DNA of 37,535 bases from Kiritimatiellia bacterium (lineage in GTDB: Bacteria > Verrucomicrobiota > Kiritimatiellia > SS1-B-03-39 > UBA6053), in contig JAGYLC010000007.1 in NCBI GenBank assembly GCA_018401235.1, forward strand, positions 1 to 37,535, read 5' to 3'. The notes beneath the pieces were generated by a model. It was not told where the DNA came from. It was given only the letters and a program-made list of their open reading frames with translations, and made no database searches. The translations under genes and the position numbers were made by a program. This document shows positions 2,618 through 17,511 of this stretch, one piece after another; position 1 is the stretch's first letter; each line of letters opens with the position of its first letter.

Positions 2618-4447
2618 GTGGGGGGGGGAACCAGGGGACTCAATTCTACTTTGGCCGGATACGCAATGGAACAACATCCCCCCCGGGAACATTCGTGTTC
2701 GAACTTGGGTGGGATCAAGTCCCGGTTTGGGTATGGAAGTTCTGCGTATCCGGCCTCTTTTAATGAAAGCGTGGGGCTAGACGGAACCGTTTTGCCATCC
2801 TGGAAACCCTTTCTGGAAAAAATCCAGTCCGGTTCCGTTGAGGACCATACCCGTTGGCGGGAAGCTATACAGCGGGATATGCGGGAGGACGGGCTCACCT
2901 TCACCTTGAGCCAGGAGATCACCCGGACGCCGCCCCGCGAGGAACTAAATCCGATTCCCTGGATCTTTTCGAGTGAGCAATGGCAACCGGTCGAGGCGGG
3001 GGTTTCCCAGCGGGCACGCGTATTGGCGGCCTTGGCCCGGGATTTGTTGGGGCCCCGCACCCTGATCCGCAGAGGGGTGCTTCCCACCGAATTATTATTT
3101 TCGGACCCGGCCTATTTAAAACCCTGTATCGGCCTCCCCCCCAATATGGAGTCCTGGCTCTTTCAATACAGTGTGGATGTGGCCAGGGGGCCGGACGGGC
3201 GATTCTGGATTCTGGAGGATCGTGCCCAAGTGCCCTCCGGGGCGGGGATCGCCTTGGAAAGCCGCACCATCATGGGGAGGATTTTTCCGCAGATGCTCTC
3301 ACGGATGCAGGTACGGCGCTTGGCCCCTTATTTCCGGAAATTACGTGAATCGATGTTGAGCATGTATCAGGGACGCCCTCCGGAGCCGCGGGTGGTGCTG
3401 ATGACTCCGGGACCCTATAGTTCCTCCTACTTCGAGCATGCCTATCTGGCCGCGTATCTGGGGTACACCCTGGTACAGGGCAGTGATTTGGTGGTGCGGA
3501 ACGGTTCGCTGAAACTCAAAACCCTGGAAGGCCTGCAGCCGGTGGACATCGTGCTGCGTCAGTTGGATGCCGAATATCTGGATCCCCTGGAATTGAAACG
3601 GGACAGTTATCTGGGAGTGCCCGGATTGTTGGGAGCCATGCGAACCGGCCGCGCGGCGGTCCTGAATCATCCCGGTTGTGGAGTGCTGGAAAATGCCGGA
3701 TTGATGGCCTTTGTTCCCATGCTCTGCAGGGAATTATTGGGGGAGGAGTTGCTTATGCCCTCTTTTGTAGGGCAGGAACAAATGGAATTCAGCTCGCTGC
3801 CCACCTTGGCCGGCAACCGGTTGGAGGAACGGACCTCGGTGATGCGGGCATTCGCGTTTGCCTCCGGATCGGATTATGAGGTGATGCCCGGTGCACTGGC
3901 CCGCTCTGCCCGCGAAACGGATGGAGGAACCATCGGGCTGGACACCCGGGGCTGGATCAAGGACGTATGGGTACTGGGGAGGGTGCTGGAGTCGGGGATC
4001 GGACTCTGCGAACTCATGACCGGGCTGTTGGAGGTAAAAGAACCCGGAGAGGCGATTTCCTACGGCCTGATGGAGTTGGCGCTTCAGCAGAATGAAAATC
4101 TGATTACCTACCGTCGACATTACCGGACCACCCCGCAGCTTCGATCCGTGCTGGCGCTGATGACGGCCTCCGAGATGAATCCACGCAGCTTGGCCTTTTA
4201 TCTGGAGCAACTCACCACCTACGCGGGGCAATTGCCTCCCCCGGTGCAATCCGAAGTAATGGAACCGCTAATTCTCGACATCAAACGCATTCGCAGTCGA
4301 CTGCTTCAGACCGAAATGAACCAGCCGGATCCCGACGGAACCTTGTCCTTTTTACAGGAAGTGCGTGCCTGCATTGAGAATGTCTCCACCGTGGTATCCT
4401 CCGCCTATTTTAGTCACACCACCTTGTTGGCCCGGGAGAATTTCTAA
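2618..4447 (+). CDS. Circularly permuted ATP-grasp / alpha-E fusion protein with internal losses
   Basis: The 609-residue product resembles fused COG2308-COG2307 proteins, usually 800 or more residues, found beside transglutaminase genes; their role is poorly known and is thought to involve peptide bond formation. Recognisable ATP-grasp parts are WILEDRAQVPSGAGIALESR, VLMTPGPYSSSYFEHAYLA, LRQLDAEYLDPLEL and the later FVGQEQMEFSS plus VMPGALAR. The alpha-E part has ITYRRHYRTTPQL and NPRSLAFYLEQL near the end. Two blocks appear to be missing: about 75 residues between LLGEELLMPS and FVGQEQ, which normally carry the ATP-contacting lysine, and about 200 residues between KDVWVLG and RVLESGIGL. ATP-grasp activity is therefore doubtful. 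The GTG at 2618 is the first possible start; MEQHPPREHS at 2666 is an alternative. The gene overlaps the next by one base (TAATG). Confidence 0.7.
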   Translation: MGGGTRGLNSTLAGYAMEQHPPREHSCSNLGGIKSRFGYGSSAYPASFNESVGLDGTVLPSWKPFLEKIQSGSVEDHTRWREAIQRDMREDGLTFTLSQEITRTPPREELNPIPWIFSSEQWQPVEAGVSQRARVLAALARDLLGPRTLIRRGVLPTELLFSDPAYLKPCIGLPPNMESWLFQYSVDVARGPDGRFWILEDRAQVPSGAGIALESRTIMGRIFPQMLSRMQVRRLAPYFRKLRESMLSMYQGRPPEPRVVLMTPGPYSSSYFEHAYLAAYLGYTLVQGSDLVVRNGSLKLKTLEGLQPVDIVLRQLDAEYLDPLELKRDSYLGVPGLLGAMRTGRAAVLNHPGCGVLENAGLMAFVPMLCRELLGEELLMPSFVGQEQMEFSSLPTLAGNRLEERTSVMRAFAFASGSDYEVMPGALARSARETDGGTIGLDTRGWIKDVWVLGRVLESGIGLCELMTGLLEVKEPGEAISYGLMELALQQNENLITYRRHYRTTPQLRSVLALMTASEMNPRSLAFYLEQLTTYAGQLPPPVQSEVMEPLILDIKRIRSRLLQTEMNQPDPDGTLSFLQEVRACIENVSTVVSSAYFSHTTLLARENF

Positions 4448-9904: not shown

Positions 9905-10897
9905 ATGCAGTGCTGGGCGGATAATTCCGAAGGTCTTGAGCAGGCCGTTGAAGCGCTGCGGGCGGGAAAATTGGTGGGAATGCCTACCGAAACCGTATAT
10001 GGCTTGGCGGGGAACGCGCTGGACGGGAAGGTGGTGGCCTCGATTTTTGCCGCCAAGCAGCGTCCGACCTTTGATCCGTTGATTGTGCACACGGCGTGCC
10101 CGGAGCAGGCTTTTGCGCTGGCCTCCTCCATACCCCGCGAGGCGGAGGTGTTGGCGGAGCGATTTTGGCCGGGTCCGCTGACCCTGGTGCTGCCCCGCCG
10201 AAAGGGATTACCGGATTTATTGTCCGCCGGATTGGACACCCTCGCGTTGCGGGTGCCCTCCCATCCGCTGGCGCATCAACTGCTTGTCAGATCCGGGCTG
10301 GCGTTGGCCGCGCCCAGTGCCAACCGCTTCGGACACATCAGCCCCACCACTGCCCGGCATGTGATGGAGGAACTGGGACACGTGCCTGAGGTGGCCGGGG
10401 TGCTGGATGCCGGGCCTTGCGAAATGGGGGTCGAATCCACCGTGATCGGATTTCCCGGGGAGGGCAGGGTGGTGGTGTATCGACTCGGAGCCACTCCGTT
10501 GGAGGAACTGCGGGAGGTAGTGGAAGCGGTGGAATGGGTGCGGGCAACCGACCGGGACGCGCAATCGGATCGGGTGCAAAAAGGCGAGCAGTCCCCCGGA
10601 ATGCTGGATCGTCATTATGCGCCCCGCAGCCCGATGTTGCTGTTGGAACGCGGAGAACCCGCGCCCGCCGAGGTTGGACCCACTGGATGGCTCTTTTTTG
10701 ATTCAGCCCTGGATGTGGAAGGCCCCCGGGAACTGCTATCGGGAAAGAGGGATTTGCGCGAAGCCGCCACGCGACTGTTCGCCTGCATGCGGCGATTGGA
10801 TGAGCAGCCGGTCAAAAGGATCGTGGCCTGGAAAGTACCGGACCAGGGACTGGGACGGGCGATAAACGATCGCCTCACCCGGGCGGCGGAGAAGTAG
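9905..10897 (+). CDS. L-threonylcarbamoyladenylate synthase (Sua5-type)
   Basis: This enzyme makes threonylcarbamoyl-AMP, the precursor of t6A37 in tRNA. The YrdC core spans residues 1-200: GKLVGMPTETVYGLAGNA, KQRPTFDPLIVH, RFWPGPLTLVL and APSANRFGHISPT. At 330 residues it is the long Sua5 form, with a C-terminal Sua5 domain introduced by SPGMLDRHYAPRSP. It follows miaB after six bases and probably shares its transcript. Its TAG stop is directly followed by a TGACCAATGAC-type repeat cluster that fills the gap to the next, convergent gene. Confidence 0.92.
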   Translation: MQCWADNSEGLEQAVEALRAGKLVGMPTETVYGLAGNALDGKVVASIFAAKQRPTFDPLIVHTACPEQAFALASSIPREAEVLAERFWPGPLTLVLPRRKGLPDLLSAGLDTLALRVPSHPLAHQLLVRSGLALAAPSANRFGHISPTTARHVMEELGHVPEVAGVLDAGPCEMGVESTVIGFPGEGRVVVYRLGATPLEELREVVEAVEWVRATDRDAQSDRVQKGEQSPGMLDRHYAPRSPMLLLERGEPAPAEVGPTGWLFFDSALDVEGPRELLSGKRDLREAATRLFACMRRLDEQPVKRIVAWKVPDQGLGRAINDRLTRAAEK

Positions 10898-11006
10898 TCA
10901 GTGGTCATTGGTCAGGGGCGGTGGAGCCGCGTCATTGGCCATTCGTCAATGGTCATGAGGATTTTATCTGACCAATGACCAATGACTATTGACCAATGAC
11001 TAATAA
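10898..11006. repeat. TGACCAATGAC-type repeat cluster without a gene
   Basis: The 109 bases between two convergent stop codons consist largely of imperfect copies of an 11-mer. On the left it reads GGTCATTGGTCA (10903-10914, with related copies near 10931-10954). On the right it is inverted as TGACCAATGAC (10970-10985 and 10991-11001). Such inverted flanks also surround the four-helix-bundle fragment at 15836-16084. Here nothing coding lies between them. Confidence 0.8.
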
Positions 11007-11219
11007 CTACTTGTCTTCCTTCGTACAGACCCCATCCTTCTGGTTGGGGCAGGTCTTGTTGGCACAAATGGGGCAATCAATCTGCTGTCCTTTGTATTGC
11101 AGGGAGGAATTGCCGCAATGCTGAATCGGCTTGCGGCCATTCAGCACCCCCACAGACATGCCCGTCACGCAAAGCAGTAACACACCCAACACGATCAATC
11201 CTAAAAGAAGTACACTCAT
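11007..11219 (-). CDS. NqrM-like (DUF539) small membrane protein
   Basis: This 70-residue product has one N-terminal membrane helix (VLLLGLIVLGVLLLCVTG), followed directly by MSVGVLNGRKPIQHCG, which matches the GMAVGVIFGRKPIKGSCGG signature of NqrM. The tail has further cysteines (CPIC, TCP, VCT) that could bind metal. NqrM is needed to mature the sodium-pumping NADH:quinone oxidoreductase, probably by supplying iron to NqrD/NqrE. No nqr genes lie in this window, so it stands alone. The gene is convergent with the Sua5-type gene, and its stop abuts the repeat cluster. Confidence 0.7.
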   Translation of the reverse strand: MSVLLLGLIVLGVLLLCVTGMSVGVLNGRKPIQHCGNSSLQYKGQQIDCPICANKTCPNQKDGVCTKEDK

Positions 11220-13898: not shown

Positions 13899-15818
13899 TC
13901 ATGCTTGCTCAAAGTAGGTGTAGCCCTGCATGCCTTCGCGGTAGGCCTGCATGATGGTTTTGCGTTGGGGGGCGGTGATCAGGCCGCTGCGCACGGCGCG
14001 TTCGGCCAGCGAACGGAAATTCATGGTCATTTCCTTGGGATCGTACTCCACGTAGCTGAGCACGTCGGCGACGGTGTCGCCTTCCACTTCGTGTCCGTAG
14101 GCGCGTTTTCCTTCATCATCCAACTCCACGCTGACCACATTGGTGTCGCCGAAGAGATTGTGAAGATCGCCGAGGGTTTCCTGATAGGCACCCACCAGGA
14201 ATACCCCGATGTAGTAGGCTTCGTCTTTATTGAAGTCGTGGAGGGGTAGCGATTTTTTGGAGCCGGTGTCGGCAATGAAATGGTCGATTTTTCCATCGCA
14301 GTCGCAGGTGATATCGGCGAAAATTCCTTCATGCTCGGGTTTTTCCAGCAGGCGGTGAATGGGCATGATGGGGAAAAGCTGATCGATGGCCCAGGTGTCG
14401 GGAAGGGACTGGAAGAGGCTGAAATTACCGTAATAGATTTCCGGGCGGGAGGTGGAGAGTTCCTCCAGGCTGTCGGGAATCCGGTCGAGGGTTTTGGTGG
14501 CTTTTTCGATTTGACGCAGAATAGCCGCGAAACACTGTTCGGTGAGGGCGCGTTCCCGGAGGGAGATCAGGCCGAGTGAAAAGCGGGAGCGCAATTCATC
14601 CCGGTAGTAGAGGGCATCGTTCAGGCTTTCCTGCAAGTTGACTGCTTTGAGGTGTTTGGGGATATCGGCGAGATATTTCAGTTCGGTGGGGACGTTCGCG
14701 GGCAGGGTGGGGAGGTCGAGTCGGCTGGAGATTCCCGACACATCGAGAATATTGAAGACCAGCACCCCGTAATGAGCCACGGTGGCGCGCCCGGATTCGG
14801 TGATTAGGGTGGGGTGCTTCACCCCGGACTTCGAGCAGATGTCCATTACGGATTCGACCACGTCGGCGCAGTATTCCTCCACCGCATAATTTCGGCTGCT
14901 GGTGGTGTTGGACTGGCTGCCATCGTAGTCCACTGCCAAGCCGCCCCCCATATCCAGATAGCCCATGGGGGCTCCCTCCTGCACCAGGTTGACATAGACC
15001 CGGCTGGCCTCGGAAACTCCGGAGCGGATGGTGCGGATATTGGGAATTTGCGAGCCGAGGTGGTAGTGCAGCAGTTCCAGACACTGCAGGGCATCTGCTT
15101 TTTTAAGCAGATCGACTACGTGGATCACCTGTTCGGCGTTGAGGCCGAACACGCTATTGTCGCCGCCGGACTGAATCCATTTGCCGCTGCCGGGCGTGGA
15201 CAGTTTCATGCGGACCCCCAGGCGTGGCTTCACCCCGATGGCGGTGGCCCGTTCCAGGATCAGCGGAACCTCTCCCACAGTCTCCACCACCAGCATCACT
15301 TGCATACCCATTTGTATGGCGTAGAGGGCGAGATCGATAAATTCCTGATCTTTATAGCCATTGCAGATAATCAGGGCCTCCGGATCCTGCATATAGCTGA
15401 GGGCGGCGATGAGTTCCGGTTTGCTGCCCGCCTCGAGGCCGTGGTGATAGGGTTTGCCATACTGGCAGATTTGCTCAATGACCTGCTGCTGTTGATTGAC
15501 CTTGATTGGAAACACCCCTTTAAATGCTCCCTGATAGCCCACATCCGCGATGGCTTTGCGAAAGGATTCGTTCAGCAGTTTGATGCGGTGTTCGAGAATA
15601 TTTCCGAAGCGCAGCATCAGCGGCGCGTCGATGCCCCGGGCTTCGAGTTCCTCCAAGATGCAGGCCATGCTATTCCAGTTCGGGTTCTCCATTTCTCCAA
15701 GGTTGACTTCCACCTCTCCCTGATCGGAGACACGGAAAAAGGGAGTTCCCCAGAGGGGAAGGCCATAGAGGTCGGCGGAATCGGATGCGGTCCAGGGGGG
15801 AGGGGGGGCAGTTGTCAT
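13899..15818 (-). CDS. speA: Biosynthetic arginine decarboxylase
   Basis: SpeA converts arginine to agmatine. The 639-residue size fits the family. Motifs include LYGLPLWGTPFFRVS near the start, the PLP lysine in KGVFPIKVNQQQQ (about residue 106), GLEAGSKPEL, YHLGSQIPN, DMGGGLAVDYDGS, and the C-terminal GAYQETLGDLHNLFGDTN. The only start in the right place is the ATG at 15818, which lies inside a GTCATTGG-type repeat and has no visible ribosome-binding site. Agmatine would need agmatinase or agmatine deiminase to become putrescine; neither is in the window. Confidence 0.94.
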   Translation of the reverse strand: MTTAPPPPWTASDSADLYGLPLWGTPFFRVSDQGEVEVNLGEMENPNWNSMACILEELEARGIDAPLMLRFGNILEHRIKLLNESFRKAIADVGYQGAFKGVFPIKVNQQQQVIEQICQYGKPYHHGLEAGSKPELIAALSYMQDPEALIICNGYKDQEFIDLALYAIQMGMQVMLVVETVGEVPLILERATAIGVKPRLGVRMKLSTPGSGKWIQSGGDNSVFGLNAEQVIHVVDLLKKADALQCLELLHYHLGSQIPNIRTIRSGVSEASRVYVNLVQEGAPMGYLDMGGGLAVDYDGSQSNTTSSRNYAVEEYCADVVESVMDICSKSGVKHPTLITESGRATVAHYGVLVFNILDVSGISSRLDLPTLPANVPTELKYLADIPKHLKAVNLQESLNDALYYRDELRSRFSLGLISLRERALTEQCFAAILRQIEKATKTLDRIPDSLEELSTSRPEIYYGNFSLFQSLPDTWAIDQLFPIMPIHRLLEKPEHEGIFADITCDCDGKIDHFIADTGSKKSLPLHDFNKDEAYYIGVFLVGAYQETLGDLHNLFGDTNVVSVELDDEGKRAYGHEVEGDTVADVLSYVEYDPKEMTMNFRSLAERAVRSGLITAPQRKTIMQAYREGMQGYTYFEQA

Positions 15819-15857
15819 TGGTCAATAGTCATTGGTCAGTCGATAGTCATTGGGTCA
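15814..15857. repeat. GTCATTGGTC repeats, left flank of four-helix-bundle fragment
   Basis: Three copies of the repeat lie here: GTCATTGGTCA at 15814-15824 and 15828-15838 and GTCATTGGGTCA at 15846-15857. The first includes the speA start codon (read on the minus strand) and the last lies inside the end of the four-helix-bundle frame. The inverted partner cluster is at 16122-16165. Confidence 0.85.
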
Positions 15858-16084
15858 TCAACGGTGTAGGGTGAGGATTCTTCGTGAACTTGATCGGAAG
15901 AAGAGGGGCCGATGGAGGAGCGGCCATAGCCTTCGCTGATATTGGCCGCAATTGAATCCACCGCCCGAACCCATTGTTTACCAACTGTATCTTTTTCAAA
16001 ATACGACCAGGAAGAAACGATTTCCCATACGCTTTCACCAATCTCCAGACTTTGCTGGTACACTCTGAGTTCTTCCAATTTCAT
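15836..16084 (-). pseudogene. Four-helix-bundle protein (S23 / 23S rRNA intervening-sequence type), truncated
   Basis: The first ~54 residues match the family closely: MKLEELRVYQQSLEIGESVW, EIVSSWSYFEKDTVGKQWVR, AVDSIAANISEGYGR. The usual second half (helices 3 and 4; full length ~115-120 residues) is absent, and after GYGR comes a Ser-rich tail (SSIGPSSSDQVHEESSPY) ending in repeat sequence. The tail may be the natural C-terminus joined by an internal deletion, or unrelated sequence. Inverted TGACCAATGAC clusters flank it on both sides. It sits within the polyamine cluster but is not expected to act in it. Confidence 0.75.
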
Positions 16085-16121
16085 GCGCTGTATTCCTCTT
16101 GCTCGATTTTCCTACACCAAA

Positions 16122-16165
16122 TGACAACTGACCAATGACAACTGACTGATGACTACTGACCAATG
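16122..16165. repeat. TGACCAATGAC repeats, right flank of four-helix-bundle fragment
   Basis: Degenerate units TGACAAC, TGACCAATGACAAC, TGACTGATGAC and TACTGACCAATG follow each other and run up to the stop codon of the dehydrogenase gene at 16167. The orientation is opposite to the cluster at 15814-15857. Confidence 0.85.
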
Positions 16166-16166
16166 C

Positions 16167-17378
16167 CTACTCCCCCCACACGGGGGGAGAGTCGGGATCG
16201 AGGTCTTCGATCTGCCAGGGGAGGCCGTGTTGGTTGAGGGCGTTCATGAAGGGGTCGGGGTCGAGTTGTTCGAGGTTCCAGACTCCGGGCTGCATCCATT
16301 GTCCGGTCATCATCAGCTTAGCACCGATCATGGCGGGAACCCCGGTAGTGTAGGAGATAGCCTGCGACTTCACTTCGGCGTAGCATTCCTGATGATCGCA
16401 GATGTTGTACACATACACTTTTCGTTTTTGTCCGTCTTTGGTTCCTTCGATGATGTTTCCAATTACGGTTTTCCCTTTAGTGAGCGGGCCCAGGGAGGCC
16501 GGATCCGGAAGCACCGCTTTGAGGAATTCGATGGGGGCGATTTGCTGTCCTTGAAACGGGATGGCTTCGATGGAGGTCATGCCCACATTCTGCAGCACGG
16601 TGAGATGGTTGATGTAGGAGGGACCAAAGGTCATCCAGAATCGAATGCGCTTGAGGCCGGGGATATTCCGGCAGAGGGATTCCATTTCCTCGTGATAGAG
16701 CAGGTAGATTTCTTTTTCGCCCACCACCGGGAAGGTGTAGGGACGGTGCCATTCCAGCGGTTGGGTTTCTTTCCAGTCGCCGGACTCCCAGTAGCGTCCG
16801 TTGGCGGTGATTTCGCGGATGTTGATTTCGGGATTGAAATTGGTGGCGAAGGGGAGTCCGTGATCGCCGGCGTTGCAGTCGAGAATGTCCACGGTGTCGA
16901 TTTGATCGAAGAGGTGTTTTTGCGCGTGGGCGCAGAATACATTGGTGACGCCGGGATCGAATCCACTGCCCAGGAGCGCCATCAGGCCTTTTTCCGCAAA
17001 GCGCTGGTGGTAGGGCCACTGATACTCGTAGGAAAAGCGGGCCTCGTCTTTGGGTTCATAGTTGGCGGTGTCCAGATAGTGGACTCCTGCCTCCAGACAG
17101 GCCTCCATCAGGGTCAGGTCCTGATAGGGAAGGGCCACATTCAGGACCAATTCCGCGCCACAGTCCCGGATCAACTTGACGGTTTCCTTCACATTGTCGG
17201 CATCCACCGCTGCGGTGTGAATGGGTCGGGACAGTTCGGAGGCGATCTGGTCGCATTTGGATTTCGTGCGGCTGGCGAGGGTGATGGTTTCAAACACGTC
17301 CTGATTTTGCGCACATTTATGCACCACCACCCGGCCCACGCCGCCGGCGCCGATAATCAAAATATTTTTCATAGACAT
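16167..17378 (-). CDS. Carboxynorspermidine dehydrogenase (saccharopine dehydrogenase family)
   Basis: The enzyme reductively condenses putrescine or diaminopropane with aspartate semialdehyde to carboxy(nor)spermidine, the substrate of NspC. The product has ~403 residues with an N-terminal NAD(P) fold (NILIIGAGGVGRVVVHKCAQ), then LNVALPYQDLTLMEACLEAG and VHYLDTANYEP, GSGFDPGVTNVFCAHA, and the family C-terminal domain with TTGVPAMIGAKLMMTG. The ATG at 17378 (MSMKNILI) is preferred; longer in-frame starts would run through a 19-bp hairpin. The neighbouring speA and nspC on the same strand support the pathway. Confidence 0.88.
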   Translation of the reverse strand: MSMKNILIIGAGGVGRVVVHKCAQNQDVFETITLASRTKSKCDQIASELSRPIHTAAVDADNVKETVKLIRDCGAELVLNVALPYQDLTLMEACLEAGVHYLDTANYEPKDEARFSYEYQWPYHQRFAEKGLMALLGSGFDPGVTNVFCAHAQKHLFDQIDTVDILDCNAGDHGLPFATNFNPEINIREITANGRYWESGDWKETQPLEWHRPYTFPVVGEKEIYLLYHEEMESLCRNIPGLKRIRFWMTFGPSYINHLTVLQNVGMTSIEAIPFQGQQIAPIEFLKAVLPDPASLGPLTKGKTVIGNIIEGTKDGQKRKVYVYNICDHQECYAEVKSQAISYTTGVPAMIGAKLMMTGQWMQPGVWNLEQLDPDPFMNALNQHGLPWQIEDLDPDSPPVWGE

Positions 17379-17428
17379 GGGCGCATCATTTAAAGAAAAA
17401 ATCTGTCGTGGCAAGAGGCAATTACTAT

Positions 17429-17468
17429 TCGTATGGAGTGCGGAAGCAAGCTTCCGCACTCCATACGA
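17429..17468. repeat. Perfect 19-bp inverted repeat
   Basis: TCGTATGGAGTGCGGAAGC (17429-17447) is followed after two bases by its exact complement (17450-17468). It lies between the divergent dehydrogenase and membrane-protein genes. There is no T-run on either side, so a REP-type element or a regulatory hairpin is more likely than a terminator. Confidence 0.8.
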
Positions 17469-17511
17469 GTTGCAAGCTTGATCCATACACTGACTACGTT
17501 ACACTGAATAT

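Follow-up and report, generated by a model that had tools for sequence, protein, structure and literature searches.

The feature that separates a dehydrogenase gene from speA in the window (the whole 37,535-nt stretch of DNA that was analyzed) is probably an insertion cassette resembling the intervening sequences (IVSs) of rRNA, in which an IVP gene is bounded by inverted arrays of short repeats, and which would correspond in mRNA to the 23S rRNA IVS. Arms of this kind and IVP genes occur together across prokaryotes. A broader reading is evenly poised between right and wrong: that these are small mobile elements found throughout prokaryotes, which carry an IVP gene or, in parallel, a GxxExxY gene within inverted, freely varying 7- to 9-nt arrays and insert with a 4- to 5-bp duplication between cotranscribed genes, the rRNA IVS being a special case and many heptamer repeats being debris of the element.

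This broader reading would join two old puzzles, the heptamer repeats of many genomes and the insertions of rRNA genes. To our knowledge, the origin of heptameric intergenic repeats is unexplained, and no function has been assigned to the IVP/S23p family, the structure of which has been solved and which is known chiefly from rRNA. If the reading is correct, mRNA spacers of bacteria and archaea host the IVS as a general mobile element, the termini and remnants of which are recognizable as heptad arrays; its mobility and its RNA processing would both be testable in culturable cyanobacteria.

An IVP gene between inverted arrays in a polyamine operon

On the minus strand of the window, the genes and arrays are arranged in the order carboxynorspermidine-synthase-like dehydrogenase, array, IVP gene, array, speA, and nspC (Table 1). 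The arms, composed of 7-nt units with a spacing of 14 nt, showed 84% complementarity across 37 nt (15804 to 15840 versus 16141 to 16177), in line with an earlier reading made from sequence only (the sequence-only reading), which had described inverted repeat clusters flanking the ORF and reaching the dehydrogenase stop and the speA start. The latter point also held, with the speA ATG located inside the last repeat of the 3' array. Matches to TGACCAATGAC with no more than 1 mismatch were found at 11 sites in the window, compared to 0.82 expected, and 11 matches were reached in 0 of 100 shuffles; those at 15814 and 15828 were on the minus strand and those at 16129 and 16157 on the plus strand. 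The unit is of the TGACCAA type and contains no GGG tract of the G-quadruplex-capable kind. Predicted RNA folding of positions 15800 to 16180 (minus strand) gave a single extended stem that the arrays close (−157 kcal/mol, z = −7.7). The gene-less array pair listed in Table 1 lies just 3' of a plus-strand gene (Sua5/YrdC-like, as read from the sequence).

Table 1. Features of the window cassette, its neighbors, and a gene-less array pair
Feature	Coordinates	Strand	Description
Gene-less inverted TGACCAA array pair	10897..11007	.	Unit as in the window cassette; 5' arm GTCA.., 3' arm TGAC..
speA (arginine decarboxylase), downstream neighbor	13899..15818	-	PRK05354, 825.7 bits; TIGR01273, 734.6 bits
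3' arm, TGACCAATGACTATTGACCAATGAC array	15804..15862	-	Last part is the start of speA (ATGACAACTGCC)
IVP/four-helix-bundle ORF, 82 aa	15836..16084	-	PF05635 N-terminal half; TIGR02436
5' arm (sense of the IVP gene)	16116..16177	-	GTCATTG/GTCAGTA-type 7-nt array starting at the dehydrogenase stop codon; inverted match to 15804-15860
Carboxynorspermidine-synthase-like saccharopine dehydrogenase family, upstream neighbor	16167..17486	-	C terminus VWGE*

Residues 4 to 57 of the ORF aligned with positions 1 to 54 of the 106 positions in the PF05635 profile (45.9 bits; cutoff, 33.8), as anticipated from the earlier assignment of its N-terminal part to the 23S rRNA IVS/four-helix-bundle family, and the match to TIGR02436 was likewise confined to the N-terminal half (41.7 bits; cutoff, 24). 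The nearest full-length homologue, a 147-aa protein of a congener (L027), spans positions 1 to 108 of 109 in TIGR02436. Compared to this homologue, approximately 56 codons following NISEGYGR are absent in frame from the window gene, the tail (SIGP..DQV.E..PY..D) is still detectable, and the final residues (PMTID*) are encoded by the 3' array. The proposal that the cassette later lost its second half was partly right, the plain 3' truncation it implied being replaced by an in-frame internal deletion with a recognizable tail; a true loss of the 3' half was found in a plasmid copy (L417, below). Because of this internal deletion, the window copy is probably decaying.

Boxed IVP genes across prokaryotes

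The survey covered 172 IVP genes, comprising 92 from related genomes of the same class and 80 named loci from public genomes, for which the search was run from a 4-row alignment. Loci were scored as boxed when the 5' and 3' flanks gave an inverted match with a score of ≥15. Matching inverted arms were found for 132 of the 172 IVP genes. In 400 kb of sequence from the class genomes, 5 of 277 control genes reached this score, and when arms from different loci were paired as a second control, 2.5% of the pairs scored ≥15. Boxed loci made up 70 of 92 in the class (71 of 93 before removal of L101, a masked-N artifact) and 62 of 80 among the named loci, which span Bacteroidota, Clostridia, Acidobacteria, Planctomycetes, Cyanobacteria, CPR, ANME-1, and Heimdallarchaeota, among others. 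Genes neighboring the named IVP loci likewise scored ≥15 in 5 of 38 cases. The check proposed in the sequence-only reading, that other four-helix-bundle genes be examined for flanking inverted clusters, thus returned such clusters at most loci, with units that were locus specific. The source genome itself contains four IVP genes, at least three of which lie between inverted arrays, with a different unit for each.

The arm repeats were tandem, with a period of mostly 7 or 8 nt (best period of 7 in 44/71 class and 44/62 named loci), and the unit varied from locus to locus, yet both arms of one locus matched. The 5' arm was G rich at 65 of 71 class and 58 of 62 named loci (123/133, with L101 counted). 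Both neighbors were codirectional with the IVP gene at 75 of 101 boxed loci, compared to 102 of 283 control triples (36%), and the cassettes fit closely between them, with the 5' arm starting at a median of −0.5 nt relative to the upstream stop and the 3' arm ending a median of 9 nt ahead of the next start. Conserved IVP sites included the groES-groEL spacer in Gastranaerophilales and, in Bacteroidales, the spacer before the succinate dehydrogenase/fumarate reductase iron-sulfur subunit (sdhA-sdhB), with gene names read from translations in both cases; further spacers holding IVP genes were those of V-ATPase B-D (probable), aldolase-mdh, O-antigen operons, and cas6-cas4. None of the sampled IVP loci carried the 23S rRNA motifs for which they were searched. 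Orthologous IVP genes had dN/dS values of 0.05 to 0.27 where dS was measurable and not saturated, indicating purifying selection. IVP genes were present on 36 plasmid records, which were cyanobacterial for the most part, and among 50,697 phage records there was one weak IVP match.

Genes of the GxxExxY family (PF13366; PD-(D/E)XK-like; L144 to L173) had inverted flanks scoring ≥15 in 26 of 29 cases, with units apparently of 8 to 10 nt (e.g., CACGGATGAA, CACAGAGG, and ACAGGATn). GxxExxY is thus a second gene family that shares the boxed architecture.

Empty and filled insertion sites

The sequence-only reading had held that the gene and repeats form one inserted cassette, a claim supported both by congeners in which the window site is empty and by plasmids on which the unit entered whole. 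In the Trichormus variabilis and Scytonema plasmids, a cassette occupies an intergenic spacer of a conjugation operon, which in four sister plasmids (approximately 97% identity) is bare and array-free (AAAAAGTAATTAACAAATAA). Where the cassette is present, the sequence is AAAAAGTAAT-AAATCAGAATTCAG...IVP...CTCCTGAGTTCTTCTTT-GTAATTAACAAATAA, with a 5-bp target duplication, GTAAT. Since the empty site is free of arrays and the filled site has GTAAT duplicated, the gene and both arrays entered together. At the same site, the copy in Nostoc sp. C052 (L417) is missing its 3' half and 3' arm. In a second plasmid operon, two plasmids have the cassette and three are empty; ATCC 53789 has the arms and 5' junction of the cassette carriers and no gene, and one plasmid carries another heptad element that lacks a gene and is accompanied by a duplication of GTCA. 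The gene-less forms are L420 and L422, the latter with the 4-bp duplication.

The same arm-IVP-arm element was found at another site in Aulosira (L427), with 82% identity across 416 nt and homology that extends no farther than the arms, and a third similar copy was found at L426. Target duplications were identified in the sister cases L408 and L422, just one of them fully clean; at L426 the duplication is 4 to 5 bp and ambiguous with the element end, and at L406 (locus C), L425, and L427 no exact duplication could be read. One of the eight plasmid cases (L410, in the cas6-cas4 spacer) has arrays that look direct instead of inverted, and two of eight (L411 and L412) are antisense to the operon. 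The antisense cassettes of L412 (2495 to 2863) and L411 occupy an nrdB-nrdA spacer and a type I secretion operon. Adjacent to the IVP cassette of L427, a gene-less element (4060 to 4264) has the arms of that cassette and an unrelated interior.

Adjacent dehydrogenase and speA genes, which the sequence-only reading had suggested looking for, were found in three genomes of the same genus (G002, G003, and G004), with a spacer of approximately 100 to 150 nt and no IVP gene. The speA genes of these genomes are 79 to 81% identical to that of the window. The dehydrogenase ends in VY* in all three and in VWGE* in the window, which suggests that the original stop codon was replaced upon insertion. No target duplication could be read at the window site, where the empty sites available for comparison are ~80% divergent. 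The aldolase-mdh site has the cassette in G000, G001, G006, and G009 and is empty in G003, G004, G005, and G007. In the G003 aldolase-mdh spacer (L345), TAAAGAGGTCAGGGGG lies directly past the stop codon and resembles a residual 5' arm; congeners hold an IVP cassette there.

Arrays without the gene

In the sequence-only reading, repeat clusters occurring mostly without four-helix-bundle genes were named as evidence against a cassette, and in the source genome this is what was found: pattern matches for three unit types numbered 110, 43, and 68, against 4 IVP genes, and were mostly gene-less. The cassette reading is nevertheless supported, although gene-less arrays are far commoner, because the converse holds and IVP genes mostly lie within such arrays.

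Intergenic tracts with a period of 7 or 8 nt numbered 3 in 771 kb of IVP-poor genomes (no IVP match or, in one genome, a single weak match) and 31 in 786 kb of IVP-bearing genomes, and the three in the IVP-poor genomes were GC rich and atypical; tracts of other periods numbered 11 and 6, respectively. Across 116 genomes of the class, the number of IVP genes was positively correlated with heptad matches (rho = 0.52, P = 3e-9; uncorrected for phylogeny and with arms partly counted). The median heptad matches were 0, 3, 13.5, 20, and 86 for genomes with 0, 1, 2 to 4, 5 to 8, and ≥9 IVP genes, where counts are summed matches and the reversed control pattern catches heptads as well. Arrays were present with no detectable IVP gene in G065 and G003. 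Gene-less copies behave as though derived from or related to the cassette.

The abundance of gene-less arrays in the source genome is what would be expected if the arrays were primary, either self-spreading in the manner of STRRs or MITEs or produced by slippage, with IVP genes as passengers that settled in existing arrays. The gene-less L422 with its own 4-bp duplication, the retention of arrays in G065, and a toxin-antitoxin-like pair that likewise lies between two same-type arrays (L400, 2458 to 3324, in an rfbF-rfbG spacer, adjoining a boxed IVP gene) point in the same direction. This explanation is nonetheless unlikely: the exactly mapped empty plasmid site holds no array, one arm-IVP-arm unit occurs at different sites with homology that stops at its arms, random genes are unboxed, and intergenic heptads are nearly absent from the IVP-poor genomes.

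RNA stem, arm turnover, and proposed mechanism

A further alternative is that the arms are maintained as a functional RNA stem, acting as an operon regulator or processing site, and that IVP is an RNA-binding regulator useful to the host. Purifying selection on IVP genes, their long conservation at single sites (sdhA-sdhB in Bacteroidales, groES-groEL, and mdh), and the very stable predicted stem are consistent with such a role, as is the finding that both arms were turned over together at orthologous sites (L269/L310, L282/L289, and L070/L078). Among arm mismatches, however, G-U wobbles were not in excess (192 G-U versus 249 A-C), so selection on an RNA stem is unsupported and the stem may simply result from the way the arms form. 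The presence of cassettes is also patchy, their neighbors are functionally unrelated, and a large part of the conserved C-terminal half of IVP is missing from the window copy, leaving a host role for the stem improbable. Concerted turnover of the arms fits DNA-level copying between them.

Mobilization of the arrays by Y1 (HUH) transposases, as in REP/RAYT-type elements, is highly improbable, because Y1_Tnp genes in the same genomes, although flanked by inverted repeats in 19 of 27 cases, have flanks of another kind, consisting of fixed palindromes or GGGGTCAG motifs in place of heptads that are specific to each locus, and the source genome has only 2 Y1 matches yet plentiful heptads. At L124 (13336 to 14103) and L174 to L195, the inverted repeats around the Y1 (RAYT-like) genes are palindromes of the REP-like or GGGGTCAG type.

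Under the insertion cassette reading, the element would have inserted in the polyamine operon between the dehydrogenase gene and speA. Sites that separate the stop codon of one gene from the start codon of the next cotranscribed gene may be favored because landing there would do little harm. By analogy with the 23S rRNA IVS, the transcript would form a long stem cleavable by RNase III, which would leave both neighbors expressed. IVP, a four-helix protein that is a pentamer in structure 2GSC, may bind the arrays and help the element to persist or spread.

Comparison with known systems

Searches of the open-access literature returned no paper describing heptad arrays around IVP genes outside rRNA. 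PF05635 is homologous to Avd of diversity-generating retroelements (PMC10053308); Avd partners a reverse transcriptase. Such retroelements combine a reverse transcriptase with TR and VR repeats, none of which is described at the window cassette, the immediate neighbors of which are polyamine genes. REP/RAYT (REPIN) systems combine a fixed palindrome with a Y1 transposase, in contrast to the locus-variable arms of the cassette. MITEs and REPINs share with the cassette inverted ends, gene-less copies, and a short target duplication (here in sister cases), but the cassette ends are tandem arrays with a different sequence at each locus, and no parent transposon with heptad ends was noticed.

In one published account, heptameric repeats are G rich and intergenic and lie between aligned genes of the same polarity, with the G-rich strand after stops and the C-rich strand before starts, and in general they are not associated with insertion sequences or transposable elements (PMC4692102). 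Sets with units such as GGGAATC (Xanthomonas), GGGGATT (Nostoc), and TAACTGA (Beggiatoaceae; PMC4679880), as well as STRRs, resemble the arrays described here in having 7-nt tandem units in spacers and many sets per genome, and the window cassette likewise has 7-nt tandem units between aligned genes. The published accounts tie the repeats to no gene family, whereas here heptads are the ends of an IVP cassette.

The closest known system is the 23S rRNA IVS of Coxiella and Leptospira, for which mobility has been suspected in the literature. In Coxiella, the IVS likewise codes for S23p/IVP, with three copies of GACAGAT ahead of the S23p ATG and an RNase III site at the first repeat; its repeat copy number is variable, and in one strain the ORF is shortened by a 176-bp deletion (PMC4990558). 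Like these IVSs, the window cassette encodes a member of the S23p/IVP family, as an internally deleted copy, and has complementary, stem-forming ends. The two differ in location and in the extent of the repeats: the 23S rRNA IVS lies in rRNA, whereas the window cassette lies outside 16S and 23S rRNA, in the mRNA spacer between the dehydrogenase gene and speA, with long arrays on both sides.
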